This document shows, piece after piece, positions 15,923 to 44,609 of a DNA stretch of 64,000 bases. A model generated the notes under the pieces. The model saw only the letters and a list, made by a program, of their open reading frames with translations, ran no database searches and had not been told where the DNA came from. The stretch lies in the NCBI RefSeq assembly GCF_003075435.1, contig NZ_QCZJ01000002.1, positions 186,001-250,000 of the forward strand, given 5' to 3'. The position numbers and the translations under genes are program-made. Position 1 is the stretch's first letter. Every line of letters begins with the position of its first letter. Origin of the DNA: Terrimonas sp. GTDB taxonomy: Bacteria; Bacteroidota; Bacteroidia; Chitinophagales; Chitinophagaceae.

Positions 15923-16783
15923 TTAACTATTACAAGTTAAAGGAACAACGCCATGTTGTTCAGCGTAAGTAATAATTGCTTCGCTTTCAGACAAGTCCAG
16001 ATAATTTAAAATATTTGAAGTTCTTAGTTGGTTCCAAATATCATGTTGCTTTGGAAATGTATTTCTATCAGGTTCCTTAGCAATGATAAAGTCCTTCATA
16101 GAAACATTATTTTCATTGTAAGTAGTCTTCAATTGTATAAAGGAATTAATATGGTTAGCTACTGTTACTGGTGTAGCTTCCATGTCAACTGTTTGAGCAA
16201 ATACATCAATTTCATTCTTACCTGCAAAGTCGATACGAACTGGAGTAATTAGATTTTGTACGTGTTCATGGGTAACCTCCCTATTTAAATCATAGTGCTT
16301 TTCGATTTTGTCGCCAAAATGAGTTTTTATGTATTCAACCGGTTTCACTCTCGGTAATTCCTCTTTAGCTTCAATGATGTCGTCAATGTATTTTCTGAAC
16401 AGAGAAGAAAAAATCTGCTTATTCACTTCCAATGAAATCTCTTTGGGATTTGTAAATGAAATGACATTATTAGAATACTTGCTCAAATAAGAGATGTAGG
16501 AAGTAGAAAAGGTATTATCAGAGATATTATTCTTAAATATTTTGAACTCTTTTTTATTTGAAGATTTTGAATTATCAAAATCAATCTTCCTTTCAATGTT
16601 TTCTAATATCTCCCGAAGTATTTTATATGACGAGTTAGAGAGCAATTCTTTTGAAACTTGCAATTTATTCTTTGAATAGCTGAAATAAACTTCGTTAGCA
16701 TTGAACAATAGCAACCCTACTGAAATCTTTTCCTGGATTTCAGGCCTAATTAAAACTGATAATATGCTGTATTGAGTTGTCAT
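15923..16783 (-). CDS. DUF3037-like protein paired with HipA-like kinase
   Basis: A protein of about 286 residues starting at the ATG at 16783 (MTTQYSILSVLIRPEIQEK). A longer frame reaches upstream into the HipA-like gene, but the internal ATG 5 bp after that gene's stop is the natural start. The N-terminus (YSILSVLIRPEIQEKISVGLL) resembles the YSvvryvPd..rgE.vNVGvvl opening of DUF3037 proteins. Those are typically encoded beside HipA_2-type kinases, exactly as here. The remainder is charged and has no recognisable catalytic motif. Its function is unknown, and a partner or modulator of the kinase is the simplest idea. The assignment rests on the N-terminal pattern plus gene context. Confidence 0.6.
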   Translation of the reverse strand: MTTQYSILSVLIRPEIQEKISVGLLLFNANEVYFSYSKNKLQVSKELLSNSSYKILREILENIERKIDFDNSKSSNKKEFKIFKNNISDNTFSTSYISYLSKYSNNVISFTNPKEISLEVNKQIFSSLFRKYIDDIIEAKEELPRVKPVEYIKTHFGDKIEKHYDLNREVTHEHVQNLITPVRIDFAGKNEIDVFAQTVDMEATPVTVANHINSFIQLKTTYNENNVSMKDFIIAKEPDRNTFPKQHDIWNQLRTSNILNYLDLSESEAIITYAEQHGVVPLTCNS

Positions 16784-16788
16784 TTTGT

Positions 16789-17598
16789 TCAGGCTGCAAA
16801 GTATTGTAAAAACTCCAAAAAAGTGTGCCAACACTCCTCAAACCATTCGTCGGTAAGTAAAAACTGATTTAGTTCCGTCTCTTTTCCCTGTAAATTAACG
16901 TTCCATTCTGGTGGAATGTTTTGTAAATATTGATTAAGATTCTGTCTGCAACTCAGGGTGCAAAGGTAAAAAGATTGTTTGAGGTTTTCAATATTTTTAA
17001 ACTCATTGATTTTGAACAACTTAGAAAAGAAGGAAGAGTATATCAAACTATCCTCATAAGTTATTTGTACCAAGCCATTTTCAAGGTTTTGAGAATTAAA
17101 ACAGGCTTCATGGTCAATGGGGTAAAGCCTGTATTGTCCGCCAATCAGTTTATATAGGATATTGTAATTGTTTAAATGCCTGTCTTCGTTTGCCACCCAA
17201 ATATCAAAAAAAGCCAGCTTTAAAACATCTGCTTTTAATACTTTTTTATTCCTTGTACCTACCAGAATATCTTCTGATACCTGGTTCAAGTCAAAAACAT
17301 CTTCAAGCTTTTGCAGTCCAAAACAAGGAACCTCAAACCTGTTTCTTGGGATAGTTAAATCTGGTGGAATGTGTTCCGGCAAAACCTGTATCAATGAAAA
17401 TGGAGCATGATTGAATTGCCAACAATCCAGAAACGAAGCAATAAGAAACTCTTTGAATAACCTATGTGCAGTACCAACAAGATTATGATACTTGCAATAG
17501 TAGAAATTCAAATCAGAGGCATGGACTATTATTGGCCTGTTTTGGGTTTCAATAATGTTTCCCCTGTCTAATGCTTCTATGGATTGGAAAGTAGGCAA
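16789..17598 (-). CDS. HipA-like kinase domain protein (HipA_2 type)
   Basis: A 269-residue protein with the C-terminal kinase signature of the HipA superfamily. It has FFDIWVANEDRHLNNYNIL (Asp139, Asn143/Asn146, catalytic loop) and YPIDHEACF (Asp162, metal-binding DFG-like Asp). The N-terminus has RPIIVHASDLNFYYCKY and an AHRLFKEFLIASFLDCW helix as in stand-alone HipA_2 proteins. It lacks the N-terminal Couple_hipA domain and there is no HipB-like antitoxin next to it. It follows the AIPR gene by 57 bp and precedes the DUF3037 gene by 5 bp. The substrate is unknown. It might be a toxin-like or regulatory kinase attached to the defence operon, but that link is only by position. Confidence 0.75.
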   Translation of the reverse strand: MPTFQSIEALDRGNIIETQNRPIIVHASDLNFYYCKYHNLVGTAHRLFKEFLIASFLDCWQFNHAPFSLIQVLPEHIPPDLTIPRNRFEVPCFGLQKLEDVFDLNQVSEDILVGTRNKKVLKADVLKLAFFDIWVANEDRHLNNYNILYKLIGGQYRLYPIDHEACFNSQNLENGLVQITYEDSLIYSSFFSKLFKINEFKNIENLKQSFYLCTLSCRQNLNQYLQNIPPEWNVNLQGKETELNQFLLTDEWFEECWHTFLEFLQYFAA

Positions 17599-17655: not shown

Positions 17656-20025
17656 CTAAATCTTAAACCCGTATTTTGAAATAAAATGATAGTTCATCAG
17701 ACAGTATTTTTTGTTTTGTGCTGTTAACTGCTCTTTGTCATTTATAATATCGAACATCATTCTGAAATGATGGGGTTTTAACCGTTTTTTTACTCTATCC
17801 CATTCAACCATCTTTCTGATAAGTTTCAAAGTTATTTCAGGGTCTTTGGAATTATTCGATTCGATATGTTCAGATAACTCATCAATTTCAAAAAGAAGTT
17901 CAGGTGCATTCTCAATTACTTTTTCAATTATGTAAATGCCATTTGAAATTTCGTTTGGCAATATATTTGAACCATTCCTGACTTTTAAAGCCAAGTTCCA
18001 GGAAATGTTTTGCTGTGTGTCGGACAAACTCCTGGTTTCTTTGCCCCAATCCTCAATTTTCTTCCATACGCTTGTCGGAATAGATTTTATTTTTTCAAGT
18101 TCTTCCTGCCTCTTTTGCATTTCCGCTTCATCTTCAGAAATGATTATTCTCTTTGGCGGATTTTTCTTATCAATTAAATCCTGCACTATCCCTGATAAAT
18201 CAAAGTCGAATCCATGTGATTTGACTTTTAACCAGCACTCTTCTTTTTTTGCCCACTCACCATAAAGCCCTCCGGGAATATCCTTAATAAAGGCTTCAAC
18301 TTGTACCATCATTGAATGGAGCAATTGTTTAAGTGAACCGGATATATCCTGAGCCTTCCAGATTTTGTATAAGTCTAACTGATTTTTAGTTAAATGATTT
18401 AATAAACTGATGGTGTAGGGCACAGTAATGTAACGCAAATCACCAATAGCATTGGGTTTTACACCATAAACTTTCTCCGAAGCCCGATAGAGGATTGCTT
18501 TTGAAATTGTGTCTTCGTAATATACATTATTCAGTTTCTTTTCGAGATTGAAGTTGATAAACTGTACATAGTTTTTTTGATTTCCTCTTACAACATAATG
18601 TGGACCAACAGGCACTTTCTTCCCGTCTGCTATTTCCTGATAAGCATTAATGTATTTAGCCAATTCCTCTTTGGTGAACATTTGATTCTTCGGGTTCTTT
18701 AAATCAAAAGCCTTTAGTCTGGACTTTGGCAAACTCTCCTTCAGTCGTGCATTTTTATATTGCCCTCTTGCCCTTTCATAAAACCATTTAGTTTGTATCG
18801 GCTGACTGTCTGTTAAAGGGGTGAAAATACTTCTTGACAGTTTTTCAAATTCAATATGATACGGCCTGTTACTACTTAAATCTGAAACTGATACTTTATT
18901 TTGAGTATTGGCGAAAGCAGATATATTGGAAACAATATCACTGAATTTCTCTTTATTCTTGATTAATGATATTTTCATTTGGACAAATATTTTGGAAATA
19001 TCAGCCTTGTCCTTTTTGAAAGTATGATAAATTGAAGCAGTGGTTTGGCCACCATTCACTATTTGAAAATCCTTTACTGCGGCTATGTTCAACGAACTGC
19101 CATTTTCTTCAAATATTATTTCATCCGCAGTAGTTGTTAGTCCGTTATTATATGCAAGAAACATTTCGGGGCTTTCAATTATAGTTTTCCTAATACCGAA
19201 ATTTGTTGATTTTTTTCCGCCTACCTGCAAGAATGAACGTACATTTTGTTCTAAAAGTCTTGCACCATATTGCTCATAAATAAAAGCCAATGCCTCCCCT
19301 GGAATAATCGCTAAATATGATTGATAATCGTCTGTAATAGATGGAGACTGAATACACGGAATCGAAAAGCCATACGATTTGAAATCAATATCATTCGGGA
19401 GATGAGGCTTGTTACTTATATTAAAAAGGCTTTCAATATCAAATACTTTGTAATAGAAGTTATATCCTGAAATAGTTGTGCCTGATGGAAATTCACCTTT
19501 ATAAGAGCCGTTGGTTAGTATAAAGGCATTGACTCTGACAAGGTTCTCTCTGACTTCCTGCGACTTTGCCAGTGTATAGGCAAACTGAAATATTTCAGAG
19601 GTTTCTTCAATTTCATCAACATACTCACTTCTGAAATACTTGTTTTTTTCATCATCCGCTGCATAAATAGCTTTTCTGAAAAAGTTTGAAATTCTTTTTG
19701 ATGCTGTTTCAATTTCCTGATTTGAAATCTTCGATATTTCTTCTGTACCGTTAAAAATAGTTATAAACAAATCTACTGTTTCATAATTCTCAGATATTGC
19801 ATAAGCATTTATTTTATGCTGCTTCTGTGTTCCCAAACCTTTTTCATCATACCTGACAACTATATTTTCTGATTCACCAGATGCTGCCAGCAAATCAACT
19901 GCCTGTTGAGTAAAAATCTGTTCTGAAATTGCCCCTTCTTCATCTGTTGACTGGATGGCAGCGATGTCCTGCATCAGTGAAACATAAAATTTATTTAGTT
20001 CAATATTTTCAAGTGATAGGCTCAT
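17656..20025 (-). CDS. AIPR family (abortive infection phage resistance) protein
   Basis: A 789-residue protein with the AIPR core at about residues 230-500. Diagnostic strings are LLEQNVRSFLQVGGKKSTN, FLAYNNGLTTTADEI and FQIVNGGQTTASIYHTF. Next come VQMKISLIKN and the block ANTQNKVSVSDLSSNRPYHI, then IQTKWFYERARGQYKN. The family was first named from a lactococcal abortive infection gene and often occurs in restriction-like cassettes with Z1 proteins. Its biochemical activity is not established here. The start ATG overlaps the stop of the PD-(D/E)XK gene (ATGA), so translation is probably coupled. It is full length, with a helical C-terminal extension of about 250 residues. Confidence 0.88.
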   Translation of the reverse strand: MSLSLENIELNKFYVSLMQDIAAIQSTDEEGAISEQIFTQQAVDLLAASGESENIVVRYDEKGLGTQKQHKINAYAISENYETVDLFITIFNGTEEISKISNQEIETASKRISNFFRKAIYAADDEKNKYFRSEYVDEIEETSEIFQFAYTLAKSQEVRENLVRVNAFILTNGSYKGEFPSGTTISGYNFYYKVFDIESLFNISNKPHLPNDIDFKSYGFSIPCIQSPSITDDYQSYLAIIPGEALAFIYEQYGARLLEQNVRSFLQVGGKKSTNFGIRKTIIESPEMFLAYNNGLTTTADEIIFEENGSSLNIAAVKDFQIVNGGQTTASIYHTFKKDKADISKIFVQMKISLIKNKEKFSDIVSNISAFANTQNKVSVSDLSSNRPYHIEFEKLSRSIFTPLTDSQPIQTKWFYERARGQYKNARLKESLPKSRLKAFDLKNPKNQMFTKEELAKYINAYQEIADGKKVPVGPHYVVRGNQKNYVQFINFNLEKKLNNVYYEDTISKAILYRASEKVYGVKPNAIGDLRYITVPYTISLLNHLTKNQLDLYKIWKAQDISGSLKQLLHSMMVQVEAFIKDIPGGLYGEWAKKEECWLKVKSHGFDFDLSGIVQDLIDKKNPPKRIIISEDEAEMQKRQEELEKIKSIPTSVWKKIEDWGKETRSLSDTQQNISWNLALKVRNGSNILPNEISNGIYIIEKVIENAPELLFEIDELSEHIESNNSKDPEITLKLIRKMVEWDRVKKRLKPHHFRMMFDIINDKEQLTAQNKKYCLMNYHFISKYGFKI

Positions 20026-21020
20026 TGTTTTATCAGGGTTTGAAAAACTAATTCTTCTGTTTGTTTAAATTCTTCGCATTGCGAAAGAATAATTGAATAT
20101 TCCACATCGCCTACACCACTTCGGAGTTCCTTCTCCTGTATTCTTGGAAAAGTATCTTCCACTGAATAAAATGTAGCCTGTCTTATAAAATAGCCTGTTG
20201 TGTCATAAAGACCTATATGTTGTTCAAAATACCCAGCTTCATAGAGTTTAGACCGGAACCGGTTTAATGCTATGGCATCATGTGAAAGCAAATTGCTTAT
20301 TGAAGAAACGATTTGGTTTAATGTCTCTCCGCTTTCCTGTACTTTCTCCAATGAAACATGATAGATATATAACTTTTCAAGATGAGTTATATCTAATTGC
20401 CTTTCGCTGCTGATTTGAATTTTCTGATGATTATTACCATGCGTTGTTTTTACTTCCAATGCCCAATTGCCCATCTGAAAATCTCTCACTTCACTTGCAG
20501 GGCCAACCCATGTATTCAATACAGCAGAGTAATTGTTATTATGCTGCATGAATTTTCGCAGAAAATACAATTCGCCAAATAAACCTCTTTGTTCTTCGGG
20601 AGATAATCCTTCCGAGGCAATTTTGGTAAATAAGGATTTCCATTTTTCAAACCTGTTCAATAAGGTTTTTACCAACTGCCTTTCATTGGTTTCTGTGGCA
20701 ATATTTGCAATCAGGTCTTCACATAGAACAGAAAAAATATCCCTGTGTTGATTGTTTGTTAGTTTAAATATCAGTATTCTTTTTTCTTGCTTGTTAGGGT
20801 CAGGAATAAGTTCAATTTGTATTTCCTGTAGATTATCAAATTGAGAAATATCAACATCAATTGATTCGCTTATTGAACTGGCAATGCACAGTTGTTTTTC
20901 TGGTTGTTGTATTGCAACAAACACATCAGGTAATACTGAGCCGGAATACCTTCTCAATAGCAGCCCTTTTGCAAATGAAGTATCATTTGCCAGTTCATCC
21001 CATATTTGATTAATCTTCAT
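20022..21020 (-). CDS. PD-(D/E)XK motif protein (DUF4420-like putative nuclease)
   Basis: A 332-residue protein of the type annotated as PD-(D/E)XK motif protein. The probable nuclease core is GLFGELYFLRKF (Glu150), followed by WVGPASEVRDFQMGNWALEVKTT in pieces: Asp180, then Glu189-Val-Lys191, matching D-x(n)-ExK. The N-terminal 100 residues are beta-rich. It is the most likely DNA-cutting subunit of the cassette. Its start overlaps the end of the Z1 gene by 11 bp and its stop overlaps the start of the AIPR gene, so all three are translationally linked. Nuclease activity is inferred from the motif. Confidence 0.85.
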   Translation of the reverse strand: MKINQIWDELANDTSFAKGLLLRRYSGSVLPDVFVAIQQPEKQLCIASSISESIDVDISQFDNLQEIQIELIPDPNKQEKRILIFKLTNNQHRDIFSVLCEDLIANIATETNERQLVKTLLNRFEKWKSLFTKIASEGLSPEEQRGLFGELYFLRKFMQHNNNYSAVLNTWVGPASEVRDFQMGNWALEVKTTHGNNHQKIQISSERQLDITHLEKLYIYHVSLEKVQESGETLNQIVSSISNLLSHDAIALNRFRSKLYEAGYFEQHIGLYDTTGYFIRQATFYSVEDTFPRIQEKELRSGVGDVEYSIILSQCEEFKQTEELVFQTLIKQ

Positions 21021-23745
21021 CCTCGTCCTCCTCTTCTAAATTGTCTTCCTGATTGAATATTGATAATAGCTGTTCATGAACAGCATAACTTACAGTTGCG
21101 TTAAACCTGCTGGAAGGGAAACTTATTGCATACCCTACTATTGGATTACTGTCAGATGCCAATCCTGCTTCTTCGGGATTTAAAAAATAGATAAGCAATA
21201 AGGGTTTTCGGGGGTCTCGAATTTCATTTCGAACTATTTCACCACTAATATAACTTGGCTCACCTTCTTTTCCCCTTTGCCTCCAATATTCAATTGTTCT
21301 GTTCCAGGCATTGTTTCGTTCTTCATCCGTTAAGTCAATTACTTCATCTCCTGGGCTAATAATATGTGAACGTTTTATGTAGTAATTATCAGTAGAAGAA
21401 TTTCTTTCATCTTGCCGCCTGTTAAATAAACCAATATCCAGTTCATCTTCTCCCTTTTGAATTGTGTATCTCAAATCGGCCTTCTTTTTTGACATAATGG
21501 CCACTCTCCATTCTGTTAGCTCATTATTTGCTACCTGTAAGTTTATAAATCTGATAAGATTAGTGGGGTCAGCCCGTTTTAGATTTTCTGAAAGTCTAAA
21601 TCCCTGAAGTAAAGATTTAATATTTTCAACATTCACATCAAACCATAAATAGTTGTCTTTTCTTATTTCTGGCCTACCGTTAAGTTGGTCAATAAATGCT
21701 ATTGTTGCTTGAAGGTTAGAAGAAATAACATCTGCCTTTTTTTGAAACTCATAAGATTCAACAAGTCTGCCCGCCCATGAAACAGTTACGGTTGTTGCTC
21801 TCCTGATTTTATTACTTGCTGAAATTTGAAGTACGCCAGGGTGAGTTCTTACTTTTAATGCGTATTGCTCCGGTGTTGCTCCTACAGTATCACTCATATA
21901 ATCAAACTCATTTCTTAATTCTTCCGAAGCATGAGTAATATGGCAGAACCATTCATTAAGTTGTCTGCTTGTAAATAATCTGCATAAATCCACATATCCT
22001 GGCCTGTAGCCAAACCATCTTCCCATTTGCATAAGAGAATCATACATTCTGGATGTACGCAAATAGTAGCTCACAGAAAGACCCTCAAGAGTTAAGCCTC
22101 TGGAAAGTTTATTTCCACCAACTGCAATAACTGATAAACCATTTGGATGGTCGTAATAATTCAGAGCATCTGCCGAACCCATATTTATCTCCTTAACTAT
22201 TATTCTTGATGCTGCTTCGTGAGGGTGTTGTTTTACATCTTCCCAGGTATGTATCTGAATCTGGCCGTCAATTGCTGCCAATTGGGAATTTAAAATCTGG
22301 GAACTAATGGTAGTGTAAGATTTATAATTTCCCTGGTCTTCTTCGAAAACCTCTCTGAACTCTTCCAGCACTGATGCAATTTTCATTTCGATACCTCTCC
22401 GGTAAAAGTCAAAAACATTTTCTACCAGTGACTTTAGTTCATGCTGCCAGGCTCTTAATCTGGAGACATGAACAAGCATTGAGTTGTGTACATCAGTTTG
22501 ACCTCTTAATCTTCTTATTGCACAAGTGATAATAAAACATTTGATTGCTGTTTTGAGTGATTCCGGAACTTCGGTTGGTGTATTTGAATCATCAACAAAA
22601 TGGTGATGGTCGTCTATTCTTCTTACTATTGGTAATACATCATCAGATTCCTCGTCATCTCCCACAAGCCTGAACCCAAAAACTTTATCCGGGCCGATGT
22701 AGTTTGATGGTGCAGGCAGATTAATTATAAAGTCTCTTGGAAATAAATTGTCTTCTTCTATGGGAATGAAAATATTTGCAAAGGGGGTAGCAGTATAACC
22801 TACATAGCCACTTTTATCGAATAGCCTTAGGATATTCCTGATTAAATCATTAATTCTGGTAGCCGGGTCGTTATCCCGGTTGGTATTAATTGAAGCATTG
22901 TCTGCTTCATCGTCTATTAACAACAATGATTTGCTTCTGATTACCCTGCGGCCATCAACGTCTATTGCCTTGGAATTTAGCCATTGCAGTAACCTGTTTA
23001 ATATCGTCGCATTCTTTTTTACAACCAACACCAAAGGGTCTTTCATTCCAAAATTAATTCCCGATGAATTAGCTGCAGCGGTATTGAAATCTGAAATGCT
23101 TGTGGTTAATGAATGTGCAATTGCATTTTGATTAAAGCGGCCAACTCCAATCCATGTATTATTTTCTCTGAATGCCCTTTCATGTTGTGTATCAAAGCCA
23201 AGAAAACCTTCATCAATTCGGAGTTGCGTTTGACTTCTAAGATTATTATGTATGCCCGCCAGAACAATAATCAAATTAAATCCAGCATCCGCTCCTTTGC
23301 AGATAAGGCCGGTATAGTTAGCCGTCTTGCCAGATTGCACTTGCCCAACCACAAGACCGTATTTACTTATGATTGCATTTATTTCCGGGTCAAATAATCC
23401 GTCTAAAGTGCGGTCGGTTAGTCTGTCGAGTTGATTTAAAACTGTATCAGCAAAATTCTTCTCATATTGTAAGTAATCTCTGTATCTGTTCCAAAATTTA
23501 AAATCAATTCCTGCTTTCTTTGCATTAATCCAGGGAAGCCTCCGTTCAGTATCTTCTATAACCCTGAAGTCCTCAATACGAACATTGTAAATTGATTCAA
23601 TTTCCCTTAGCAAAGCATCTTTATCTACAGAGGAATATAATGGTAAAGACAGTGCCATATCTACGGCGGTATCAATTTCCGCTCTGCTAACACTTCCAGT
23701 TTGAGGCAGGAAAGTTCTGACAGTTTTGATTGCTTGTTGAAGCAT
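21010..23745 (-). CDS. Z1 domain superfamily II helicase-like ATPase
   Basis: A 911-residue Z1 protein. Walker A is GQVQSGKT at residues 134-141 and Walker B is the helicase-like LLIDDEAD at about 276-282. GYTATPFANIF is a motif III-like segment. The Z1 domain proper contains VIAVGGNKLSRGLTLEGLSVSYYLRTSRM and LMQMGRWFGYRPGYVDLCRLF, the motif V/VI region with Arg residues. The family occurs with MORC/MutL-like ATPases in predicted restriction systems, where it probably moves or remodels DNA. The C-terminus is very acidic (NLEEEDEDED). It starts 11 bp after the GHKL gene. Confidence 0.92.
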   Translation of the reverse strand: MLQQAIKTVRTFLPQTGSVSRAEIDTAVDMALSLPLYSSVDKDALLREIESIYNVRIEDFRVIEDTERRLPWINAKKAGIDFKFWNRYRDYLQYEKNFADTVLNQLDRLTDRTLDGLFDPEINAIISKYGLVVGQVQSGKTANYTGLICKGADAGFNLIIVLAGIHNNLRSQTQLRIDEGFLGFDTQHERAFRENNTWIGVGRFNQNAIAHSLTTSISDFNTAAANSSGINFGMKDPLVLVVKKNATILNRLLQWLNSKAIDVDGRRVIRSKSLLLIDDEADNASINTNRDNDPATRINDLIRNILRLFDKSGYVGYTATPFANIFIPIEEDNLFPRDFIINLPAPSNYIGPDKVFGFRLVGDDEESDDVLPIVRRIDDHHHFVDDSNTPTEVPESLKTAIKCFIITCAIRRLRGQTDVHNSMLVHVSRLRAWQHELKSLVENVFDFYRRGIEMKIASVLEEFREVFEEDQGNYKSYTTISSQILNSQLAAIDGQIQIHTWEDVKQHPHEAASRIIVKEINMGSADALNYYDHPNGLSVIAVGGNKLSRGLTLEGLSVSYYLRTSRMYDSLMQMGRWFGYRPGYVDLCRLFTSRQLNEWFCHITHASEELRNEFDYMSDTVGATPEQYALKVRTHPGVLQISASNKIRRATTVTVSWAGRLVESYEFQKKADVISSNLQATIAFIDQLNGRPEIRKDNYLWFDVNVENIKSLLQGFRLSENLKRADPTNLIRFINLQVANNELTEWRVAIMSKKKADLRYTIQKGEDELDIGLFNRRQDERNSSTDNYYIKRSHIISPGDEVIDLTDEERNNAWNRTIEYWRQRGKEGEPSYISGEIVRNEIRDPRKPLLLIYFLNPEEAGLASDSNPIVGYAISFPSSRFNATVSYAVHEQLLSIFNQEDNLEEEDEDED

Positions 23746-23756
23746 ATATAAATCGT

Positions 23757-25235
23757 TTATAAAAATTCAAGAAAATGAGTAAACTGATTGAATGGGTCAA
23801 TGTTTGCAATTATTGCTTTTGCTTCCTGTTGAGACTTCCCTTTCTTTATCAGTGATTCAAACATTGTTTGCATTGTCTTTCTGATTGGTTCCTGGTCTAT
23901 TCCTTCAAAAGGTTTTCCCTGTGCTTCTGGTTCTTCCGCTTCTTTAATATAAATTGATTTGGATGGAATATTCTCTTCTATAAATCTGATTAAAGTTTCA
24001 ATTGATTTATCAGGGTCTGCCTTTGCCTGGTTTTTAATAATATCAAGCAATGGATGGTCTCTGTTTATCTTGTAAAACCATTTGTCTCCTCTTTTGTGGT
24101 CAATCCATAAAGGGATAAACTTTTGGCCATTGGAATGCGTTACCGTCTTTCCTCTGTGCCGATATACTTCAACACCCTGCGACCTGACCTTAGCTGCATA
24201 ATTTTTTATCTGGTCTCTGTAAATAAGTGGCGGACGGGCAACTGATTTTTTTATATCAATCTGCCAGTCAGCATCCAGAGAATTTGGCAAATCAATCTGA
24301 ATCCTGATTAACTTGTAGTGTTCTTCTTTTCTGAATAATCCTAACCAATCACCAGCCAGCAACAACCTTTCATTTCTGTAGATATAAAAGCCCTGATGTT
24401 CATTCCAGCCTTTTGTTCCTTCGGCATATTTATATGTTTCTTCATCAATCTTGGATTTGTGTGGCAATACATACCCTTTTATAATCACTTTGCCATTGTG
24501 CAACTGCTCCTCTCCAAATGATTGAGTAGCCGATTCCGCTGGCAAAAAAGGATTCCAGGGTTTGATTTCATTATCCTGAAAGAAGATTTTAATTCTTTTA
24601 CTTTCAATAAACCTGTGAAAGACCATCGCCAGATGTTTTTTCACCAGTTCCATGATAAATAAAAATTTATCAAGTGCTGCGTTATCGGTCTGCCTGAAAT
24701 GTTTTACAACTCTGTCAATATCATTCCAGATAACAAGAGTGCCTGACGGAAGATTTGATAATGAATTTTCATTGAAGTTCTCCGGCAGATATTTAATTAA
24801 ATCCCAGTTGCCTGTTTGATTGACATAATCCAAATCCCATGTCCAGTACACACTTGCATAATCCGGTTTTTTTGATAAAACAGTTAACCGGCGAGCTTGC
24901 GAAAAAGAAGCGGTTTTAAGTCCTAAGCCAAACCTGCCTAAATCTTTTGAATTTCTATCGTCTAATGGATTTTTGCTGCCGGGACGCATGGCCTGAATAA
25001 GTTCATCATTATTCATTCCGCTACCATCATCTTTTACCGATAGCCAAGTGTCTTCTCCGTTCCATTCAAAATTTACCCATATATTTTTTGCATTTGCAGA
25101 AATTGAATTATCAATAATATCCGCAATAGCAGTTTCAATATTATAGCCAATAGCCCTGAATGTTTCAATCATTGAAGAGGCTTCGGGGATGGCTGCTGCA
25201 GTTTGGTATTTTGAATAATCTATAGGTGGTGGCAT
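23757..25235 (-). CDS. GHKL ATPase (MORC/MutL-like) of a restriction cassette
   Basis: A 492-residue ATP-binding protein with the Bergerat fold in the first 200 residues. The N-box is ETAIADIIDNSISA (Glu34, Asp39, Asn43), the G1 box is VKDDGSGM (69-74) and the G2 box is GRFGLGLKTASFSQ (100 onward). The next 150 residues look like an S5-type transducer domain, with VIWNDIDRVV and the conserved Lys region IDIKKSVARPP. This is the layout of MORC and MutL ATPases. Prokaryotic MORC-like proteins are known from predicted restriction-modification operons with Z1 proteins and methylases (work of Iyer and Aravind). It probably acts as an ATP-driven clamp. It starts 3 bp after the methyltransferase gene. 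Confidence 0.88.
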   Translation of the reverse strand: MPPPIDYSKYQTAAAIPEASSMIETFRAIGYNIETAIADIIDNSISANAKNIWVNFEWNGEDTWLSVKDDGSGMNNDELIQAMRPGSKNPLDDRNSKDLGRFGLGLKTASFSQARRLTVLSKKPDYASVYWTWDLDYVNQTGNWDLIKYLPENFNENSLSNLPSGTLVIWNDIDRVVKHFRQTDNAALDKFLFIMELVKKHLAMVFHRFIESKRIKIFFQDNEIKPWNPFLPAESATQSFGEEQLHNGKVIIKGYVLPHKSKIDEETYKYAEGTKGWNEHQGFYIYRNERLLLAGDWLGLFRKEEHYKLIRIQIDLPNSLDADWQIDIKKSVARPPLIYRDQIKNYAAKVRSQGVEVYRHRGKTVTHSNGQKFIPLWIDHKRGDKWFYKINRDHPLLDIIKNQAKADPDKSIETLIRFIEENIPSKSIYIKEAEEPEAQGKPFEGIDQEPIRKTMQTMFESLIKKGKSQQEAKAIIANIDPFNQFTHFLEFL

Positions 25236-25238
25236 AGT

Positions 25239-26480
25239 TTAGATAAGTTCTATAATAGTTGCAGCGATTGATTGGGCCATCAATGGCGGTACAGCGTTTC
25301 CTATTTGTTTAAAAGCGGCGGTTCTGTTTTTCCCTTCTTTTACTCCTTCAAAATAAAAATCATCTGGAAAAGATTGCAACCGGGCAGCTTCTCTTACTGT
25401 TAGTGAGCGGTTTTGTTTTATATCAGGATGGATATAGTAATGTCCATCCTTTGCAATATGTGCTACTATGGTTTGGGAATATTCTGCATTTGCATCCACC
25501 ACTTTAAAGCGGTCAAAAAAGGAATGCTGATTATTATGCGTTTTAAGCCGTTTGGGTAATGAAGGATAGTTGAGCCGTTCTCCCCGGTGCAGTTGCTCAA
25601 CTGCAATTCGATAAATCTCTTTGTCCTGTACCGTATGCGGACGGGCAACATGCTGTGTGAGAATATCAATACCATTCCGGATTCCAGCATTGTTCAGATA
25701 TGCTATTGACGGTTTGCCATATGAAACGAATTTGTCAACTCCTTCGCCAGCCTGAATAGAAGGAAGGTCATTCAATAATTCACTTACGGTATGTTTTGTA
25801 TTGCAGCGAATAGCTTCCAGGTCTGGCAGATCAATATTTATTTCTTTCTGCCAACCGAGAATAATTACTCTTCTTCTGTTTTGTAAAACTCCAAAATTGT
25901 TTGCCTCAACTGTAAACAACTTCATGTTATATCCCTTCTTATCGAACAGCTTTTCCATGTTGTACAGATAAATTCCGGAACCGGCAGATTTTAATCCTAA
26001 TACATTTTCAAATACAAACATTTTGGGCTGATACTTCTCCAGATATTTTGCATACTGCACATAGAGATAGTTGCGGGGGTCTCCTTTCATTCCATCTTTG
26101 CGTCTTGCCCTGCCCACCAAAGAATAAGCCTGACATGGTGGGCCACCAATAATTAAATCAACCTCCCTGTTATTTAGTTGTTTTTCGATTTCTTTATGAA
26201 TCTTAGGATTGTTTTCACCTCCAATAGGCAGGTTGATTACACTATTGAGGATTTCAGTTGGAATTTTCTTGTATAGTTCGTCTCTGGTTATTTCATTTTT
26301 CAGATACTTCTTATATATGTCAAACTTCTTTTCTGATTTCAGAAAATGATAAGCGGCTCTTGTTTTTAATGTATAACATGCCGCTTCGTCCATTTCAACA
26401 TGAGCAATAGGACTAAAACCTTCCCGGATAAATCCTTCGGAAAGGCCGCCAGCACCAGCAAAAAGGTCTATATAATTCAT
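25239..26480 (-). CDS. dcm: DNA (cytosine-5-)-methyltransferase
   Basis: A 413-residue C5-methyltransferase starting at the ATG at 26480 (MNYIDLFAGAGG). The frame extends further upstream, but that part lies inside the preceding gene. All main motifs are present: I (DLFAGAGGLSEGF), IV with the catalytic Cys116 (GGPPCQAYS), VI (FVFENVLGL), VIII (QNRRRVIILG) and X (QIGNAVPPLMA). A target recognition region lies at about residues 240-350. It transfers a methyl group from S-adenosylmethionine to cytosine in a specific sequence and would protect host DNA from the nuclease in this cassette. It starts 1 bp after the stop of the 99-aa gene. The recognition sequence cannot be predicted. Confidence 0.95.
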   Translation of the reverse strand: MNYIDLFAGAGGLSEGFIREGFSPIAHVEMDEAACYTLKTRAAYHFLKSEKKFDIYKKYLKNEITRDELYKKIPTEILNSVINLPIGGENNPKIHKEIEKQLNNREVDLIIGGPPCQAYSLVGRARRKDGMKGDPRNYLYVQYAKYLEKYQPKMFVFENVLGLKSAGSGIYLYNMEKLFDKKGYNMKLFTVEANNFGVLQNRRRVIILGWQKEINIDLPDLEAIRCNTKHTVSELLNDLPSIQAGEGVDKFVSYGKPSIAYLNNAGIRNGIDILTQHVARPHTVQDKEIYRIAVEQLHRGERLNYPSLPKRLKTHNNQHSFFDRFKVVDANAEYSQTIVAHIAKDGHYYIHPDIKQNRSLTVREAARLQSFPDDFYFEGVKEGKNRTAAFKQIGNAVPPLMAQSIAATIIELI

Positions 26481-26481
26481 C

Positions 26482-26781
26482 TTAGTTATTCTCTGGGTAT
26501 GGTTGTGATGGTAGGGGAATAAATTTATCCATTCCTGTTTCAACAAGAGAAACCTCAAGCATTACTGCATAAATGTCTGCTCCTTCTTTTTCACAAATCT
26601 CAAAACATTTATTCATTAAGTCATTTCTTACTTCAGCTTCTTCCTTTGTATAACACGGCTCATTTGTTTTAAAATTCATATAGTCGTTAAAATCATCATC
26701 AGGATGAAAGCTGACACCTTCGCCAATTATTTGCTTTGCAAAGAGTTTAACGTCCTCTACAGTTTTAATATCGTTAATCAT
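26482..26781 (-). CDS. Small conserved-looking protein between vsr and dcm
   Basis: A 99-residue acidic protein that I do not recognise by name. It begins MINDIKTVEDVKLFAKQI and contains a GVSFHPDDDFNDY segment, then an alpha-helical stretch (YTKEEAEVRNDLMNKCFEI). There is no signal peptide or membrane helix. It overlaps the vsr gene by 8 bp and ends 1 bp before the methyltransferase start, so it is an integral member of the operon. A real gene is supported by this tight packing and by the absence of any competing frame. It could be an accessory factor or antitoxin-like regulator of the methylase or nuclease, but no function is shown by the sequence. Confidence 0.72.
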   Translation of the reverse strand: MINDIKTVEDVKLFAKQIIGEGVSFHPDDDFNDYMNFKTNEPCYTKEEAEVRNDLMNKCFEICEKEGADIYAVMLEVSLVETGMDKFIPLPSQPYPENN

Positions 26782-27202
26782 TTTGTTTGGTTTTAAGTTG
26801 TTTGATAATTGCTTTCAATGTGGAATCAGTTCTGTCCTTGTTTAATTCACATTCATATATCGTAATTACTTTCCACTTACTTTTTCTCAATTTATTTTCA
26901 TTCTCAGCATCCAATTGTTTGTTTCGTCCAATCTTGTTTAGCCACCATTCCGTTCTTGTTTTCGGAACCACATAATATTTGCATCCCTCATGGCCATGCC
27001 AGAAACAGCCATGCACAAATATTGCGGTTCTGTATTTTGGCAATACTATATCCGGTTTGCCGGGCAAGGTCTTTGAATGCAGCCTGTACCTGAATCCTTG
27101 TGCAAACAGGTATTTACGCACTACCAATTCCGGCCTGGTATTCTTTGACCGGATTTTGCTCATGTTGTAGCTTCTTACTGCTTTGCTATGCACATCTGCC
27201 AT
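26774..27202 (-). CDS. vsr: Very short patch repair (Vsr) endonuclease
   Basis: A 142-residue Vsr-type nuclease starting at the ATG at 27202 (MADVHSKAVRSYNMSKI), just after the XRE gene. Family signatures are MSKIRSKNTRPELVVRKYLF, the metal-binding Asp in LPGKPDIVLPKYRTAIFVHG, and the zinc/catalytic motif HGCFWHGHEGCKY. The C-terminus has WKVITIYECEL. Vsr enzymes nick beside T:G mismatches produced by deamination of 5-methylcytosine, so they commonly travel with C5-methyltransferases, as here. In cassettes with Z1 and MORC-like proteins the nuclease might also take part in restriction, which is an inference from gene neighbourhood. It overlaps the 99-aa gene by 8 bp. Confidence 0.94.
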   Translation of the reverse strand: MADVHSKAVRSYNMSKIRSKNTRPELVVRKYLFAQGFRYRLHSKTLPGKPDIVLPKYRTAIFVHGCFWHGHEGCKYYVVPKTRTEWWLNKIGRNKQLDAENENKLRKSKWKVITIYECELNKDRTDSTLKAIIKQLKTKQND

Positions 27203-27203
27203 G

Positions 27204-27452
27204 CTACCTGTTTGTTTTTTCCAGAATCGAAATATCAAAATCCAAATACCAGGCAAACCTTACGAGGTAGTCAATGGTGATTGCAAACCTGCCGGTTTCC
27301 ACTTTTGAAATAGTGGAGCGATGCACTTCCATTATTTCTGCCAACTCATCCTGACTGTAACCCTTTTTCTCCCGAAACCCTCTGATTTGTTTTCCTATCG
27401 CTTCCCTATGCTCCTGGATATATTCTTCGGTTGGCCTGGATTTTTTAATCAT
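27204..27452 (-). CDS. XRE family helix-turn-helix regulator
   Basis: An 82-residue regulator starting at the ATG at 27452 (MIKKSRPTEEYI). The longer frame to 27527 would overlap the upstream gene. The Cro/cI-type HTH is IRGFREKKGYSQDELAEIME followed by VHRSTISKVETGRFAITIDY. It lies directly before vsr with a 1-bp gap, at the head of the restriction operon. It probably acts as a controller (C) protein that delays or limits expression of the nuclease genes, as in many type II systems. That role is inferred from position and size. Confidence 0.85.
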   Translation of the reverse strand: MIKKSRPTEEYIQEHREAIGKQIRGFREKKGYSQDELAEIMEVHRSTISKVETGRFAITIDYLVRFAWYLDFDISILEKTNR

Positions 27453-27481
27453 ATACGCTGTTCTTTTATCATGGCTTACCA

Positions 27482-27733
27482 TCACGGCAAGACAATGAGA
27501 TATTTTGTTGGAACGGGCAGTTCCCATCCATCGGGGTAGGAAACAATGGTGAGGTTACCGTTAAACTCTTTCACTGTACCCACTTGGTCAATTCCACCTA
27601 AAATCAATTGCTGATACTGCCTGACCGCTTTTTCAGGGCTGCTTGTTTCCGCTTTGAAAATTTCAATCTTGTCGTTGTCGAAGGTTACTTTGTCGCCGAC
27701 CTTAATTGTCTGGCTTGTGTTTGTTGCGTTCAT
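27482..27733 (-). CDS. Small beta-rich protein heading the restriction operon
   Basis: An 83-residue protein starting at the ATG at 27733 (MNATNTSQTIKVGDKVTFDN). The longer frame to 27811 lacks a reason to be preferred. The N-terminal KVGDKVTF and the later GTVKEFNGNLTIVSYPDGW look like small SH3-like or KOW-like barrel strands, and the middle is a helical EKAVRQYQQLILGG. I do not recognise a family. It is the first gene upstream of the XRE regulator, 29 bp away, so it may be in the same transcript. Function unknown. Confidence 0.6.
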   Translation of the reverse strand: MNATNTSQTIKVGDKVTFDNDKIEIFKAETSSPEKAVRQYQQLILGGIDQVGTVKEFNGNLTIVSYPDGWELPVPTKYLIVLP

Positions 27734-28133
27734 TTTTGATATGCAGTTTGTATAGCGTTGCCCCCGCTTTGAGATTATAAAGCTAACAGATTTAGCATTA
27801 TTATGTTGCAATATATTGAACTATATTTTATAGACAGCGGCTACTTTTCCACCGACCTGCTTTTGGCAGGACAGTAAGCATCCTTGCAAAAAAGTGAAAC
27901 ATAATAAGTGGGATAAACCCATTATTGAACGCTACTGCTGCAATCAACTGCATAGAACTATGAATAAACCAATAGAATTGGTTGGGTGGTCGTCAAAAAA
28001 TCAACCAAAACAAAGAAAAATAGAGAAAAGCCGGTTTTTTCGAGCCGACAAATAATGATTTTTACTAATAAATAAAATTTGTGCGAAAAATGCACAAGCA
28101 AAATACAAATTTGGTCGCCTGCGATTGATGGTA
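27734..28133. other. 400-bp non-coding spacer upstream of the defence operon, with dyads
   Basis: No supported gene is seen on either strand. It holds a perfect inverted repeat AACCAAT-AGA-ATTGGTT at 27967-27983 and a short hairpin CCTGC-TTTTG-GCAGG at 27856-27870. It should contain the promoter of the restriction operon, and the 7-bp dyad is a reasonable operator candidate for the XRE regulator. Confidence 0.5.
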
Positions 28134-29550: not shown

Positions 29551-29989
29551 TTAAGCAGTCTTTACTTTTGCACTCCCTTTTGAAATGCTTAATCTTTCTT
29601 TCAACAACTGCATATCACTACTTACTTTCTTATCCAACACTTTTGCATAATGCTGTGTAGTTTTTATTGATTTATGGCCGAGCATTTTTGAAACACTTTC
29701 AATAGGAACATCATTTTGCAAAGTCAATGATAAGATGTTCCTTTGTTAACTTCTTAACATCACTGTAAGCAAGGCCGGTAAAGCAACAGAAAAGAAATAC
29801 ATCCCTTACCTGTTCCAAACGTGAAGTGGCAAACTCTTTATCAGCGATGATTTGTATTTCATGCTCATGCAATATTTCTCTTTCAACTTCATTCAAACGG
29901 AAACGATAATTGATGAACGGGTCTTTATCAATCCAGCCATTGCCCAGGCAAATCCGCATTATCTTTTTGAAGTTGGTTAAATACTTTGC
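29551..29989 (-). pseudogene. Tyrosine recombinase remnant with internal deletion
   Basis: Two pieces of a recombinase related to the intact one at 43115-44362. From 29989 down to about 29732 the frame matches its residues about 185-268 (KIMRICLGNGWIDKDPF and VFLFCCFTGLAYSDVK). From about 29730 to a TAA at 29551, in another frame, it matches the C-terminus (VPIESVSKMLGHKSIKTTQHYAKVLD). About 90 residues between them, including the catalytic Lys, His and Arg, are deleted and the frame is shifted, while the active-site Tyr segment survives. The N-terminal half is missing and is replaced by an ATPase fragment. It cannot be an active recombinase. Confidence 0.85.
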
Positions 29990-30352
29990 CCCTCTGCTAT
30001 ACTTGTGAATTACTGAAAACCCATCTTCTATAAATTCAAAGCTTGCATCCCTGCATGATTTCATTATGAACTTGTATTTCTCTGTCGTTACATACCGCAT
30101 CAAACTCATTAGCGTTGTTTTACCACACCCAACGGGACCGCTTAATAAAATTCCTTTCTCCAAATCAAGCTCCAACTGCGGCGCTGCAATGTCATCTTGC
30201 AGAAACCAGCAGAGCAGCAGGTAAATGGTTTGCTTATCTTCTTCATGCAGTTGAAATTTTTTTCCATATACTTCTTTGCCTTTTTGTTGTAGCCATTGCC
30301 AAACATCGTTGTAGTTATAGCGGCTCTGAATAGTTTTTATTGGTTGTTGCAT
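29990..30352 (-). pseudogene. Truncated DnaC-like P-loop ATPase fused to the recombinase remnant
   Basis: The first 121 residues of a reading frame that runs on into the recombinase remnant (213 residues overall, stop at 29711). The Walker A motif GPVGCGKTT is at residues 72-80, preceded by the helical region VWQWLQQKGKEVYGKKFQL. After GFSVIHKYSRG the sequence switches abruptly to recombinase. The Walker B, sensor and arginine-finger parts expected in an AAA+ helicase loader are lacking. Its start overlaps the preceding gene by 38 bp, so it was the next gene of that replication-like module. It is probably inactive, though a chimeric protein may still be made. Confidence 0.75.
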
Positions 30353-31538: not shown

Positions 31539-32393
31539 TTACAATAAATCATCTGCATCATCCATTCGCTTTATCAATTTTTCTTTTAGCGTATCAATGT
31601 ATTTTGTCCTTCCTGTTTTCCGTTCCCTTAATTCAAGAAAACTGCGGTGAAATTGCCCTAATTCTATACCAAATGATTTTTCAAAAAAGTCTGCTATTGC
31701 ATTGAGTTCTATCTTACCATTATTTAATGAACCATCGGCATGAAGTGCATATATCAGTTCAATGAGTGCAACTTTTGAACCTGTCCAAAAAATAGTGGGC
31801 TTCGGTAGGACTTCTGTTTTTGAATGTGCTTTTAGTTCTTTCCTATCCAGGTTTGCAATTTCATCTTCTAAATATACCTGTACTAAATCATGTGCAATAA
31901 TCTTGGCTACTTTATAATCATGAGATGTACAAAAGCGATGGTCTGCTTCAAAGTAAAATGTGTCCAGGCTAAGTTTTATATCGTGTTTGCCACGGATAAA
32001 ATATTTGTGGTCTAGATAAGTGCTGTTGGTACGATGGTATTTGTAAAATTCAAGGTTATTATCGAAGAAACGCTTAAGCTTATCTAACTCATTGTTAAGA
32101 TATTTTCTTGTTACTTTTTCGCCGCCATATGGCTTCTTCGTTTCAATGTTTAGCACACGGTTGTGATAAATAAGTTTTGAAATAAACAATGGTTTTTGAT
32201 ACTTAAAGAAGTAAATTTCTTCTGCTTCATTTTTAAACTTATATTTTATAGTAAACCTTTTAAGTTTATCAATAACTGAAAGCAGAACCTTTAGGGATAG
32301 TTCTGCTGCTTTGATAGCATCTTCAGTTTCTAAACGAATGAACTGTAACTGGCTGTTCAAATCGTTAAGTAAATTTGCAGTAGTATTTTTCAA
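31539..32393 (-). CDS. rteC: RteC-type regulator of element excision
   Basis: A 284-residue RteC-domain protein. Recognisable features are KYKFKNEAEEIYFFKYQKPLF, the central YKYHRTNSTYLDHKYFIRG, the DFDTFYFEADHRFCTSHDYK-like stretch (here LDTFYFEADHRFCTSHDYKV) and the helical C-terminal part with KVALIELIYALHADGSLNNG. In the tetracycline-inducible Bacteroides elements RteC activates the excision genes. This gene shows that the surrounding DNA belongs to a CTnDOT-like mobile element. RteA/RteB sensor partners are not present in the window. It is followed by a terminator and lies 97 bp beyond the micro-protein gene that ends the cytochrome operon. Confidence 0.9.
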   Translation of the reverse strand: MKNTTANLLNDLNSQLQFIRLETEDAIKAAELSLKVLLSVIDKLKRFTIKYKFKNEAEEIYFFKYQKPLFISKLIYHNRVLNIETKKPYGGEKVTRKYLNNELDKLKRFFDNNLEFYKYHRTNSTYLDHKYFIRGKHDIKLSLDTFYFEADHRFCTSHDYKVAKIIAHDLVQVYLEDEIANLDRKELKAHSKTEVLPKPTIFWTGSKVALIELIYALHADGSLNNGKIELNAIADFFEKSFGIELGQFHRSFLELRERKTGRTKYIDTLKEKLIKRMDDADDLL

Positions 32394-43114: not shown

Positions 43115-44362
43115 TCAGTTTATGACGGCTTTTGACTGATTTAGATTTTGATGCATTAACCTATCTTTCAATATTTTCATATCGTCACTCACTTTTCTAT
43201 CCAAAATCTTTGCATAATGCTGTGTGGTTCGTAGGTTTTTATGTCCCAGCATTTTACTTACACTTTCGATAGGCACACCATTGGTAAGCGTAACAGTAGT
43301 GGCGAAGGTATGGCGGGCAATGTGGAAAGTAAGTTCCTTATTGATTTCGCATAGGTCTGCAATCTCTTTTAGATAACTGTTCATTTTTTGATTGCTTAGT
43401 ACTGGCAACAGCTTGCCTTCATTCAGGCATTGCGGATGCTGCTTGTATTTGTTCAAAATATCTTCTGCCATCGGTAGCAATGGAATATTGGAACGGCTAT
43501 CTGTTTTCTGTCGGTTAGTAAATATCCATTTGCCGCCATCAATACCTAATCCAATATTGGTAAGGGTTAGCTGCTTTACATCTATATACGCCAGCCCGGT
43601 AAAGCAACTAAACAAAAAAATGTCTTTTACCTGGTTGAGTCTTTCGGAAGCAAATTCTTTGTCAACAATCGCCTGTATTTCTTCCTGTACCAGGTACGCC
43701 CTTTCAACTTCTTTTACTTTGGCTTTGTAGTTTACAAAAGGGTTCTTATCCAGCCAGCCATTGGCTATGCAAATGCGGATGATTTTGCCAAAATTTTTGA
43801 TGTACTTGACTGCAGTATTGTTGTTGCACTTGCGAACGCTGCGGAGATAAAACTCATATTCTGTTACAAAGGCGTGGTCAATCTTTTTTATGTCAATGTC
43901 TGAAACATTGTATTTCCATTTTAGGAAATCAATGGTGTGCTTGAGTGATGTTTTGTAACGCTCCAAAGTGCCAGGTGCAAACTCGTCATTTAACAGGGCT
44001 TCGATTTTGTTATTATGGTCTTGGAAGATTTTAACCAGGCTTCTGCCTCTTTCTGTTTTTCCCGATACTTTATTTTTAAGTACCTCGGCAGTTACCGGCT
44101 CGCCTGCAGCCAATAATAAAGCATGATGCTGGTGAATTTTTGCCTGCAAAATATTCAGGTAGGCATTGAGGGCTTTAATATCTTCTTTGGTGCCTGATGC
44201 TAAACCTGCCTGAGTATTCCATTTTTCTGGCAGGCAATCCCTGCCTACAGACATTTCGGTTCTTTGCCCATCTACGGTAATGCGTAAGTAGATAGGTACC
44301 GGACCTGATACATAACCTTTGGGTTTCTTCAAATAGAAGAGAAAATTGAAATTTGATTGCAT
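43115..44362 (-). CDS. int: IntDOT-like tyrosine recombinase (integrase)
   Basis: A 415-residue recombinase starting at the ATG at 44362 (MQSNFNFLFYLKKPKGYV). The longer frame to 44413 lacks a reason to be preferred. The arm-binding N-terminus (PVPIYLRITVDGQRTEMSVG) is followed by a SAM-like core-binding domain (LERYKTSLKHTIDFLKWKYN). The catalytic domain has the Lys near IFTNRQKTDSRSNIPL, HIARHTFATT (His347, Arg350), MLGHKN (His374) and TTQHYAKIL (Tyr383). The first catalytic Arg position reads FTGLAYIDVK with Ala258, as in the CTnDOT integrase group, where Ser stands there. It lies 250 bp from tRNA-Ser and marks the right end of the island. Confidence 0.94.
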   Translation of the reverse strand: MQSNFNFLFYLKKPKGYVSGPVPIYLRITVDGQRTEMSVGRDCLPEKWNTQAGLASGTKEDIKALNAYLNILQAKIHQHHALLLAAGEPVTAEVLKNKVSGKTERGRSLVKIFQDHNNKIEALLNDEFAPGTLERYKTSLKHTIDFLKWKYNVSDIDIKKIDHAFVTEYEFYLRSVRKCNNNTAVKYIKNFGKIIRICIANGWLDKNPFVNYKAKVKEVERAYLVQEEIQAIVDKEFASERLNQVKDIFLFSCFTGLAYIDVKQLTLTNIGLGIDGGKWIFTNRQKTDSRSNIPLLPMAEDILNKYKQHPQCLNEGKLLPVLSNQKMNSYLKEIADLCEINKELTFHIARHTFATTVTLTNGVPIESVSKMLGHKNLRTTQHYAKILDRKVSDDMKILKDRLMHQNLNQSKAVIN

Positions 44363-44466
44363 GGTGTGGTGACCTTTTTGCAGTGATAAAATTAGATTCA
44401 TTACCGACTGCAAACAAGATGTTCAAATGCTGAACTGCTTGCTGGACAAGTGTTTCAGGAAAAGTT

Positions 44467-44511: not shown

Positions 44512-44535
44512 TAAACTTTGGTTTTAGATGAATGG

Positions 44536-44552: not shown

Positions 44553-44555
44553 TAA

Positions 44556-44589: not shown

Positions 44590-44609
44590 AGTGAGTTTTG
44601 AAACCTTAC

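Follow-up and report, generated by a model that had tools for sequence, protein, structure and literature searches.

A probable Mza-like restriction-modification operon of Terrimonas sp. with a predicted controller protein and a putatively portable operator head

What does a packed run of nine genes, which joins a cytosine methylase to a MORC-like ATPase, a Z1 ATPase and a nuclease-like protein, do for its host, and what controls it? The run lies on the minus strand (17656-27733) of the window analysed here, the whole 64,000-nucleotide stretch of Terrimonas sp. contig NZ_QCZJ01000002.1 (positions 186,001 to 250,000; assembly GCF_003075435.1), part of a 6.18-Mb draft genome. In transcription order it encodes S109, an XRE regulator, a Vsr endonuclease, S99, a C5-cytosine methylase and the MORC, Z1, DUF4420 and AIPR proteins. 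Judging from sequence comparison, this is quite probably a Mza-like (MORC-Z1) restriction-modification (RM) operon under a controller protein, whose head of operator and XRE gene would be portable and stand before several unrelated methylation-based systems.

A survey of the open reading frames (ORFs) of the window found all nine genes uninterrupted. Gene starts were refined from homologue starts and stop/start junctions; the starts of the ORF program overrun, and the genes are probably shorter. With refined starts, neighbours overlap by 4-11 bases or leave gaps of 1-29 bases, and the initial annotation's picture of nine closely spaced or overlapping genes on one strand holds. The families that it named are also recovered by Pfam (HTH_3, Vsr, DNA_methylase, HATPase_c_3, Z1, DUF4420, AIPR with AIPR_N). 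The features, all on the minus strand, are listed from the operon head; aa, amino acids, and loci outside the window carry L numbers.

27807-27821, minus strand: predicted operator GTTCAATATATTGCA of the XRE protein, with core palindrome CAATATATTG; found at the head of 14 distinct loci with a window-type XRE
27779-27786, minus strand: candidate -7 promoter box TAGCTTTA, 5/6 to TAnnTTTG; position equivalent to the perfect boxes of 11 of the 14 loci
27751-27768, minus strand: conserved leader AGCGGGGGCAACGCTATA, between promoter and first gene; exact in 7 of the 14 distinct loci
27482-27733, minus strand: S109, first gene, unnamed small protein, 83 aa; 75% identical in L103, about 68% in L104
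27204-27452, minus strand: XRE/HTH_3 regulator, predicted controller protein, 82 aa; HTH_3 45 bits (Pfam); co-occurs with the predicted operator
26774-27202, minus strand: Vsr mismatch endonuclease, 142 aa; Pfam Vsr 124 bits, and 118 bits to Vsr structure 1cw0
26482-26781, minus strand: S99, acidic small protein, 99 aa; homologues in L103, L010, L019, L106 and L107
25239-26480, minus strand: C5-cytosine DNA methyltransferase, 413 aa; Pfam DNA_methylase 205 bits
23757-25235, minus strand: MORC-like GHKL ATPase (MzaB-like); Pfam HATPase_c_3 117 bits, PADLOC MzaB 365 bits
21010-23745, minus strand: Z1 superfamily-2 (SF2) ATPase (MzaC-like); Pfam Z1 268 bits, PADLOC MzaC 549 bits
20022-21020, minus strand: DUF4420 PD-(D/E)XK nuclease (MzaD-like); Pfam DUF4420 286 bits, PADLOC MzaD 84 bits
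17656-20025, minus strand: AIPR protein (MzaE-like); Pfam AIPR 292 bits and AIPR_N 114 bits, PADLOC MzaE 272 bits

Does this array hold together elsewhere? A scan of bacterial and archaeal genomes with the window Z1 protein gave 80 loci, and a search of 98 relatives (own genome included; 7 matched) contributed L090, counted after this extension, for 81 in all. Found with the window Z1, these loci are biased to its kin and include a few near-duplicates (for example L048/L084). MORC is adjacent to Z1 in 70 of the 75 testable loci, DUF4420 adjoins the Z1 set in 70/73 and AIPR stands alongside in 62/65; thus the array is far from chance. A methylase occurs somewhere in the locus in 65 of the 68 testable cases, and Vsr in 31/68. 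By gene order, MORC-Z1-DUF4420-AIPR is a fixed four-gene unit behind a variable front. The complete nine-gene order recurs in one other genome found, G142 (locus L103). We rejected the exact nine-gene set as a common arrangement, since just two of the 81 Z1 loci have S99 and none has S109. The recurrence that the initial annotation asked for is seen for the rear block and, in G142, for the full order.

The enzymes appear intact (residues are numbered on program-made ORFs rather than refined starts). In Z1, the Walker A motif (G134...GKT141), DDEAD and QMGRWFGYR are all conserved in an alignment of relatives. Its C-terminal D569-S-L-M-Q573-M-G-R576-W-F-G579 corresponds to the motif DThhQXuRhFG with Ser for Thr, each residue being present in at least 93% of 74 sequences, and the gene is the sole Pfam Z1 match in its own draft genome. 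DUF4420 keeps E150, D180 and E189-x-K191, the pattern of an E-D-ExK nuclease, in at least 93% of 73 sequences. The methylase motifs PPCQ, ENV and QxRxR are conserved in a 64-sequence alignment, and Vsr residues D69 and H87 are present as a family motif in the Vsr alignment. In MORC, G282-FYIYRNER-LL fits the motif GhXhhpXXRhl, with G282, R287, R290 and L291 conserved. The AIPR protein is not called a nuclease here, as its N-terminal domain, tried as a candidate, has no clear PD-(D/E)XK site in the alignment. Nor did we read a methylase target from the best PADLOC match, DrmMII, or assign a specificity from identities in the recognition region, where (in a chosen sequence set) a larger methylase type is 18-24% identical to the window methylase and its own type 42-62%.

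As a side observation, Asp39 of MORC (23757-25235) is found in at least 93% of 73 aligned sequences and is thus family-wide; most GHKL ATPases carry the catalytic Glu at this position, which would make this a Glu-to-Asp change.

The four rear genes follow the order MzaB-MzaC-MzaD-MzaE contiguously in PADLOC (365, 549, 84 and 272 bits). All four proteins miss the NCBIfam Mza equivalog cut-offs (439/850, 636/1500, 144/420 and 354/1050 bits, score/cut-off), and we therefore call the operon Mza-like rather than strictly Mza. The mzaABCDE defence system, which Gao and colleagues reportedly described in 2020, is said to include a sigma factor-like mzaA. It resembles the window in its MORC/MutL-like ATPase, Z1, PD-(D/E)XK (DUF4420) and AIPR proteins, as the PADLOC MzaB-E matches reflect. 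Unlike mzaABCDE, the window carries a methylase, Vsr, XRE, S99 and S109, and no mzaA sigma factor was seen among the operon proteins in Pfam, PADLOC, NCBIfam and PHROGs scans (XRE in Pfam and PHROGs only).

The initial annotation placed MORC and Z1 proteins near methylases in a predicted restriction class (Iyer and Aravind), and the window does fit the third operon type of that class. In the portion consulted of Iyer et al. 2008 (PMC2292703), this third type of MORC operon has an SF2 helicase with the motif DThhQXuRhFG and an E-D-ExK nuclease; cytosine methylases and Vsr are frequent members of MORC operons, AIPR is named in a figure legend, and MORC is proposed to hold or loop DNA. The helicase motif, the nuclease pattern and MORC are common to the third type and the window, and the methylase, Vsr and AIPR occur in such operons. 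The third type is a prediction only, and that portion discusses no regulator, in contrast to the XRE head of the window.

Closer in gene set is the putative Type II system in the relevant section of Miller et al. 2022 (PMC9523054), with Z1, PD-(D/E)XK, cytosine methylase and AIPR together with MORC and a putative transcriptional regulator. It is called 'reminiscent of' the validated mzaABCDE at about 20% identity, and mzaA is present in few of their systems. The likeness to the window is one of described gene content, and the Type II description there names no operator, regulator reuse, S99 or S109, unlike the present account of the window. In the part of the work on CglI/NgoAVII that bears on the mechanism (PMC4267653), a DEAD-Z1 motor is coupled to a nuclease, and cleavage needs ATP hydrolysis and unmethylated sites. 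Methylase, separate nuclease and DEAD-Z1 ATPase are shared with the window, and methylation protects there. CglI/NgoAVII differs in its three genes and its PLD nuclease with a B3 DNA-binding domain, and no MORC, DUF4420 or AIPR is mentioned in that part. A Corynebacterium diphtheriae island combines, in the passage concerned, Z1, DUF4420, a Dcm-XRE fusion and an EcoRII-like nuclease (2017, PMC5379612). The initial statement that no mechanism had been worked out for the full set agrees with what Miller et al. 2022 say in that section, and no later mechanism paper stood among the titles listed by the searches, but it overlooked relatives in print (Type II, mzaABCDE) and the biochemically worked-out DEAD-Z1 motor and nuclease of CglI/NgoAVII.

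What, then, would control such an operon? Comparison of the window with L103 first revealed an invariant block upstream of S109. We examined 83 loci for it, the 81 Z1 loci plus the window and L103. An exact copy of the 14-mer TTCAATATATTGCA is present in eight of them (the window, at 27807-27821, L103, L027, L033, L034, L040, L047 and L049), always preceded by G and always at the operon head, against a chance expectation from base composition of 0.05 in 1.95 Mb (some overlapping loci counted twice). The same 8/83 loci encode an XRE at least 46% identical to that of the window (Fisher p 2.5e-11, kinship ignored); the further helix-turn-helix (HTH) proteins that the same model detects in these loci reach at most 36% identity and come without the site. 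In its own whole genome, the exact 15-mer GTTCAATATATTGCA occurs once, at the operon head.

A search for the XRE that was blind to the site gave matches in 9 of 365 class genomes at E <= 1e-8. All six homologues that are at least 51% identical have the site with at most one mismatch, and none of the three at 37-41% has it, even with up to 2 mismatches. Two of the six (window and G142) were known before and L185 has the same sequence as L033 around the site, which leaves three new and independent loci. Overall, every one of the 14 distinct loci whose XRE reaches 46% identity has the site (12 exact; L184 and L187 with one mismatch), and none of the 13 HTH proteins at most 42% identical comes with it. 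Sorting the regulators by hidden Markov model bit score was tried and rejected, for the site is present in L163 (76 bits) and absent from L023 (98) and L057 (85); identity to the window protein gives a clean division (49% for L163 versus 32% and 21%). As in RM controller proteins, an 82-aa HTH_3 protein shares one operon with methylase and nuclease, and its own candidate promoter contains a conserved palindrome, the CAATATATTG core within GTTCAATATATTGCA. The regulator named in the initial annotation is confirmed as HTH_3; its predicted DNA site and its reuse had been missed.

Motif positions -2 to 14 are nearly invariant across the 14 distinct loci, and in the rest of the interval from -30 to 59 only five positions reach 11/14 identical, two of them in the -7 box. 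TAnnTTTG is the -7 consensus of Bacteroidota. A perfect copy begins 32-35 bases after the motif start in 11/14 loci, which would place the palindrome on or close to the -33 region. Beyond its exact copies, the leader AGCGGGGGCAACGCTATA has 2 mismatches in L047, is not found within 3 mismatches in the other six loci, and has one further site elsewhere in its own genome, with one mismatch. A scan for internal operon promoters, which covered sigma-70-type sites only, gave no excess over shuffled sequences.

Control of RM systems by C proteins with palindromic boxes is classical, as the consulted part of PMC4824078 sets out. In the portion seen of the work on RptR (PMC12255303), a regulator binds TAGCTA, mainly before Type I systems of Gammaproteobacteria, and regulator and site are conserved over many bacteria. 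The window XRE resembles both C proteins and RptR as described there, as a small DNA-binding regulator in RM operons with a conserved promoter palindrome. It is unlike RptR in its site, and XRE is not mentioned in that portion; the window-type site heads Mza-like, HpaII-type and Druantia systems in Bacteroidota.

What stands behind this head varies. Mza-like operons follow it in the window, L103, L027, L033, L034, L040, L047, L049 and L172. In L168 it is followed by an HpaII-type RM system with Vsr (Pfam RE_HpaII 249 bits), and in L187 by XRE, Vsr and a methylase whose start resembles the L168 enzyme, after which the contig ends. L184 has a Druantia set (DruE 1837, DruM 499, DruF 202 and DruK 84 bits), and L186 a divergent MORC-Z1-DUF4420 set, with MzaC at merely 84 bits. 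The first gene is S109 in two loci and a 132-134-aa protein in nine (L163, L168, L172, L033, L034, L047, L049, L184 and L186). L172 (10550-10811), L033 (16194-16456) and L186 (353-528) share a 200-260-bp tail after the last defence gene, which is also found in part in L030 and L040. L172 and L033 are alike before the operator too, and L186 joins in one long match. To judge from these shared borders, it looks as if the defence systems were cargo between fixed ends of one element.

The operon front also appears, from identities between loci, to be exchanged at times separately from the restriction block. Two types of swap are seen: methylases that are alike stand before restriction blocks with about 30% identity, or methylases that differ stand before restriction blocks that are nearly the same. 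Between L103 and the window, the front five genes are 69-82% identical and the rear genes far less so (MORC 30%, Z1 34%, DUF4420 29%, AIPR 33%); DNA similarity spans 25285-27834, from the methylase end to just beyond the operator, with none further at the limit used. In L034 and L047, Z1 is 91% identical and the methylases 38%; their DNA matches over the first small gene and XRE and, at 86%, across the MORC-to-AIPR block, the space between holding only two short weaker matches.

We give even chances to the broader proposal that Bacteroidota share a portable defence-control cassette. It would comprise an XRE family, a nearly invariant 15-bp operator at the promoter and, in 11/14 loci, a short first gene, block-swapped with borders at gene ends before four or more different defence systems based on 5-methylcytosine (Mza-like, divergent MORC-Z1, HpaII-type RM and Druantia). 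Any two of these in one cell would then be cross-regulated.

Several observations weigh against this account of the operon and its head. The 15-mer is found at 9 sites in 8 of 395 phylum genomes and at 11 sites in 11 of 396 order genomes, sets that partly overlap. A reversed control pattern gives 0 and 1 sites in them, and base composition predicts about 16 sites over both. Among 18 distinct exact sites, five head window-type XRE operons (window, G142 and the new L163, L168 and L172); the other 13 head no such operon, 12 of them inside an ORF. The bare motif is not clearly enriched genome-wide, and the case for an operator thus rests on its link to the XRE. That link has weaknesses of its own: the 46% identity line was drawn after the data were seen (nothing falls between 42 and 46% over all loci), it was the site that led to three of the 14 loci (L163, L168, L172), and the loci are related, L185 repeating L033, so that counts are not independent. 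The -7 boxes are imperfect in the window (5/6) and in L103 and L163 (4/6). L163 has operator and XRE but no methylase or comparable system in the 13 kb behind, and L027, L040 and L187 have neither small first protein. Identities of Z1 and methylase correlate (Spearman 0.64 over 56 loci with all five genes); as they mostly rise together, swaps are exceptions. Finally, the AIPR model (pLDDT 82.9, pTM 0.59) is not matched by any PDB entry at E 0.001 or better.

Judged by sequence, the enzymes are intact, the four rear genes form a fixed block, the front can be exchanged and the regulator is paired with a site. A mechanism can be proposed. The C5 methylase would mark host DNA and so protect self, and Vsr would repair the T:G mismatches that arise when marked cytosines deaminate. 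Where foreign DNA lacks the mark, the Z1 SF2 motor would translocate with ATP and bring the DUF4420 nuclease to cut; the Z1 protein of CglI/NgoAVII is the precedent for such an ATP-driven DNA motor. A MORC GHKL dimer may act as an ATP-driven clamp or loop holder, and AIPR as a partner or effector. The XRE would bind GTTCAATATATTGCA at the promoter and set expression of the whole operon, most likely as an autorepressor, both binding and direction being predicted.

Would the XRE be a simple repressor? It may, though we think this unlikely, be a classical C-protein activator-repressor switch that delays restriction after entry. RM C proteins act through palindromes in the promoter of their own gene, as activators when scarce and as repressors when abundant, according to the consulted part of PMC4824078, and XRE, methylase and nuclease do share one operon. 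However, one palindrome is seen, versus the paired sites of C.PvuII-like boxes, and there is a single candidate head promoter (internal promoters being covered by the sigma-70-type scan only), so the XRE by itself would not delay the nuclease relative to the methylase. A distinctly improbable explanation is that the 15-mer is not the XRE operator but serves another function that moves together with the head, for instance as a place of insertion or recombination or as the target of a different factor. The leader, left flank and right tail are also common to some loci, as in a mobile cassette. Yet only the motif (-2 to 14), two -7 bases and three further positions reach 11/14, flanks and first gene differ, the site is absent where HTH proteins are at most 42% identical, and it is a palindrome just upstream of a -7 box, like promoter-embedded C-boxes. 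Least probable of all is that the complex attacks modified DNA (Type IV-like) or that AIPR kills the infected cell in place of phage DNA destruction by the nuclease, for although AIPR is named for abortive infection phage resistance and no methylase was found in 3/68 testable loci, the methylase in 65/68 and Vsr in 31/68 point to self-marking, and CglI/NgoAVII, with its Z1 motor, left methylated-site DNA uncut in the experiments consulted (PMC4267653).

The two unnamed small proteins noticed at the outset remain without a family in PADLOC and NCBIfam, yet are conserved in relatives. S99 has no family match in Pfam or PHROGs either, at the limits used; for S109, PHROGs matches are weak (best E 0.0055) and Pfam gives one match below the cut-off. 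Within 348 genomes of the order, S99 occurs in six (two of them weak) and S109 in three, the own genome included in both counts, and a plasmid search with S99 and S109 gave no match. By residue count S99 has a net charge of about -12, and its predicted structure has three helices (pLDDT 88.9) and matches nothing in the PDB at E 0.001 or better. In the window, L103 and L019, S99 sits next to the methylase; in L010 and L107 it is at most about 6 kb from Vsr; and in L106 it has no window-type RM gene nearby. A role as guard or DNA mimic is a guess. Homology of S109 to the 132-aa head protein was rejected (hhalign probability 0.3%). In L104 (7895-9041), an S109 homologue (about 68%) directly precedes a 307-aa protein with a weak HNH_2 match, with no window-type RM gene within 18 kb around it; in view of this locus, S109 may be part of defence beyond RM.

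Other genes accompany the array in places. Between methylase and MORC, six loci (L014, L022, L034, L047, L049 and L066) hold 3.5-4.9 kb of other genes: a CARF-STK-AAA protein in L014 (PADLOC, 1566 bits), a second GHKL ATPase in L034 and a KaiC-like ATPase set in L066. By the starts of their ORFs, L022 is like L014, and L047 and L049 are like L034. In the window, AIPR is followed on its strand, after a 57-base gap, by genes for a HipA_2 kinase (48 bits) and a DUF3037 protein with a weak match (below cut-off), at 15923-17598; the other loci searched showed no relative of the two. At 43115-44697 a tyrosine integrase neighbours tRNA-Ser (TGA), and an RteC gene lies at 31539-32393; by their gene content, integrase, tRNA-Ser and RteC suggest an integrative element. 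No exact direct repeat of at least 13 bases links 44400-44720 (tRNA-Ser) with window positions 1-44400. Four genomes of the genus hold a close copy of the left-flank gene (identity at least 69%); in each, the other flank gene is on a different contig (DNA compared for three), and the left end of the island is thus not fixed. The ORF at 29589-30352 begins with a part weakly like an AAA ATPase, and its end is overlapped by a 127-base stretch that shares 76% identity with a segment of the integrase gene and may be a scar of deletion or recombination beside the cassette.

Taken with the literature, the restriction class is already known and the apparent novelty is the control head, which is backed by regulator-site co-occurrence found from either side and by promoter geometry. 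Among the titles listed by the searches, mostly outside subscription papers, there was no earlier description of the motif or of a controller common to Druantia and other systems, and the titles listed for the operator itself did not concern restriction systems. Sorokin and colleagues reportedly predicted C-protein sites systematically in 2009, and their set could already include the GTTCAATATATTGCA motif. Apart from small Type II systems, little is known about how a defence operon of many genes comes on in a new host without being lethal to it. The natural swaps described here bear on which MORC-Z1 subunit reads the DNA target. If the proposal is true, one controller and operator reused across Mza-like, HpaII-type and Druantia systems would explain the exchange of modules behind a fixed control head, and such a shared controller would ease or block the entry of further defence systems.

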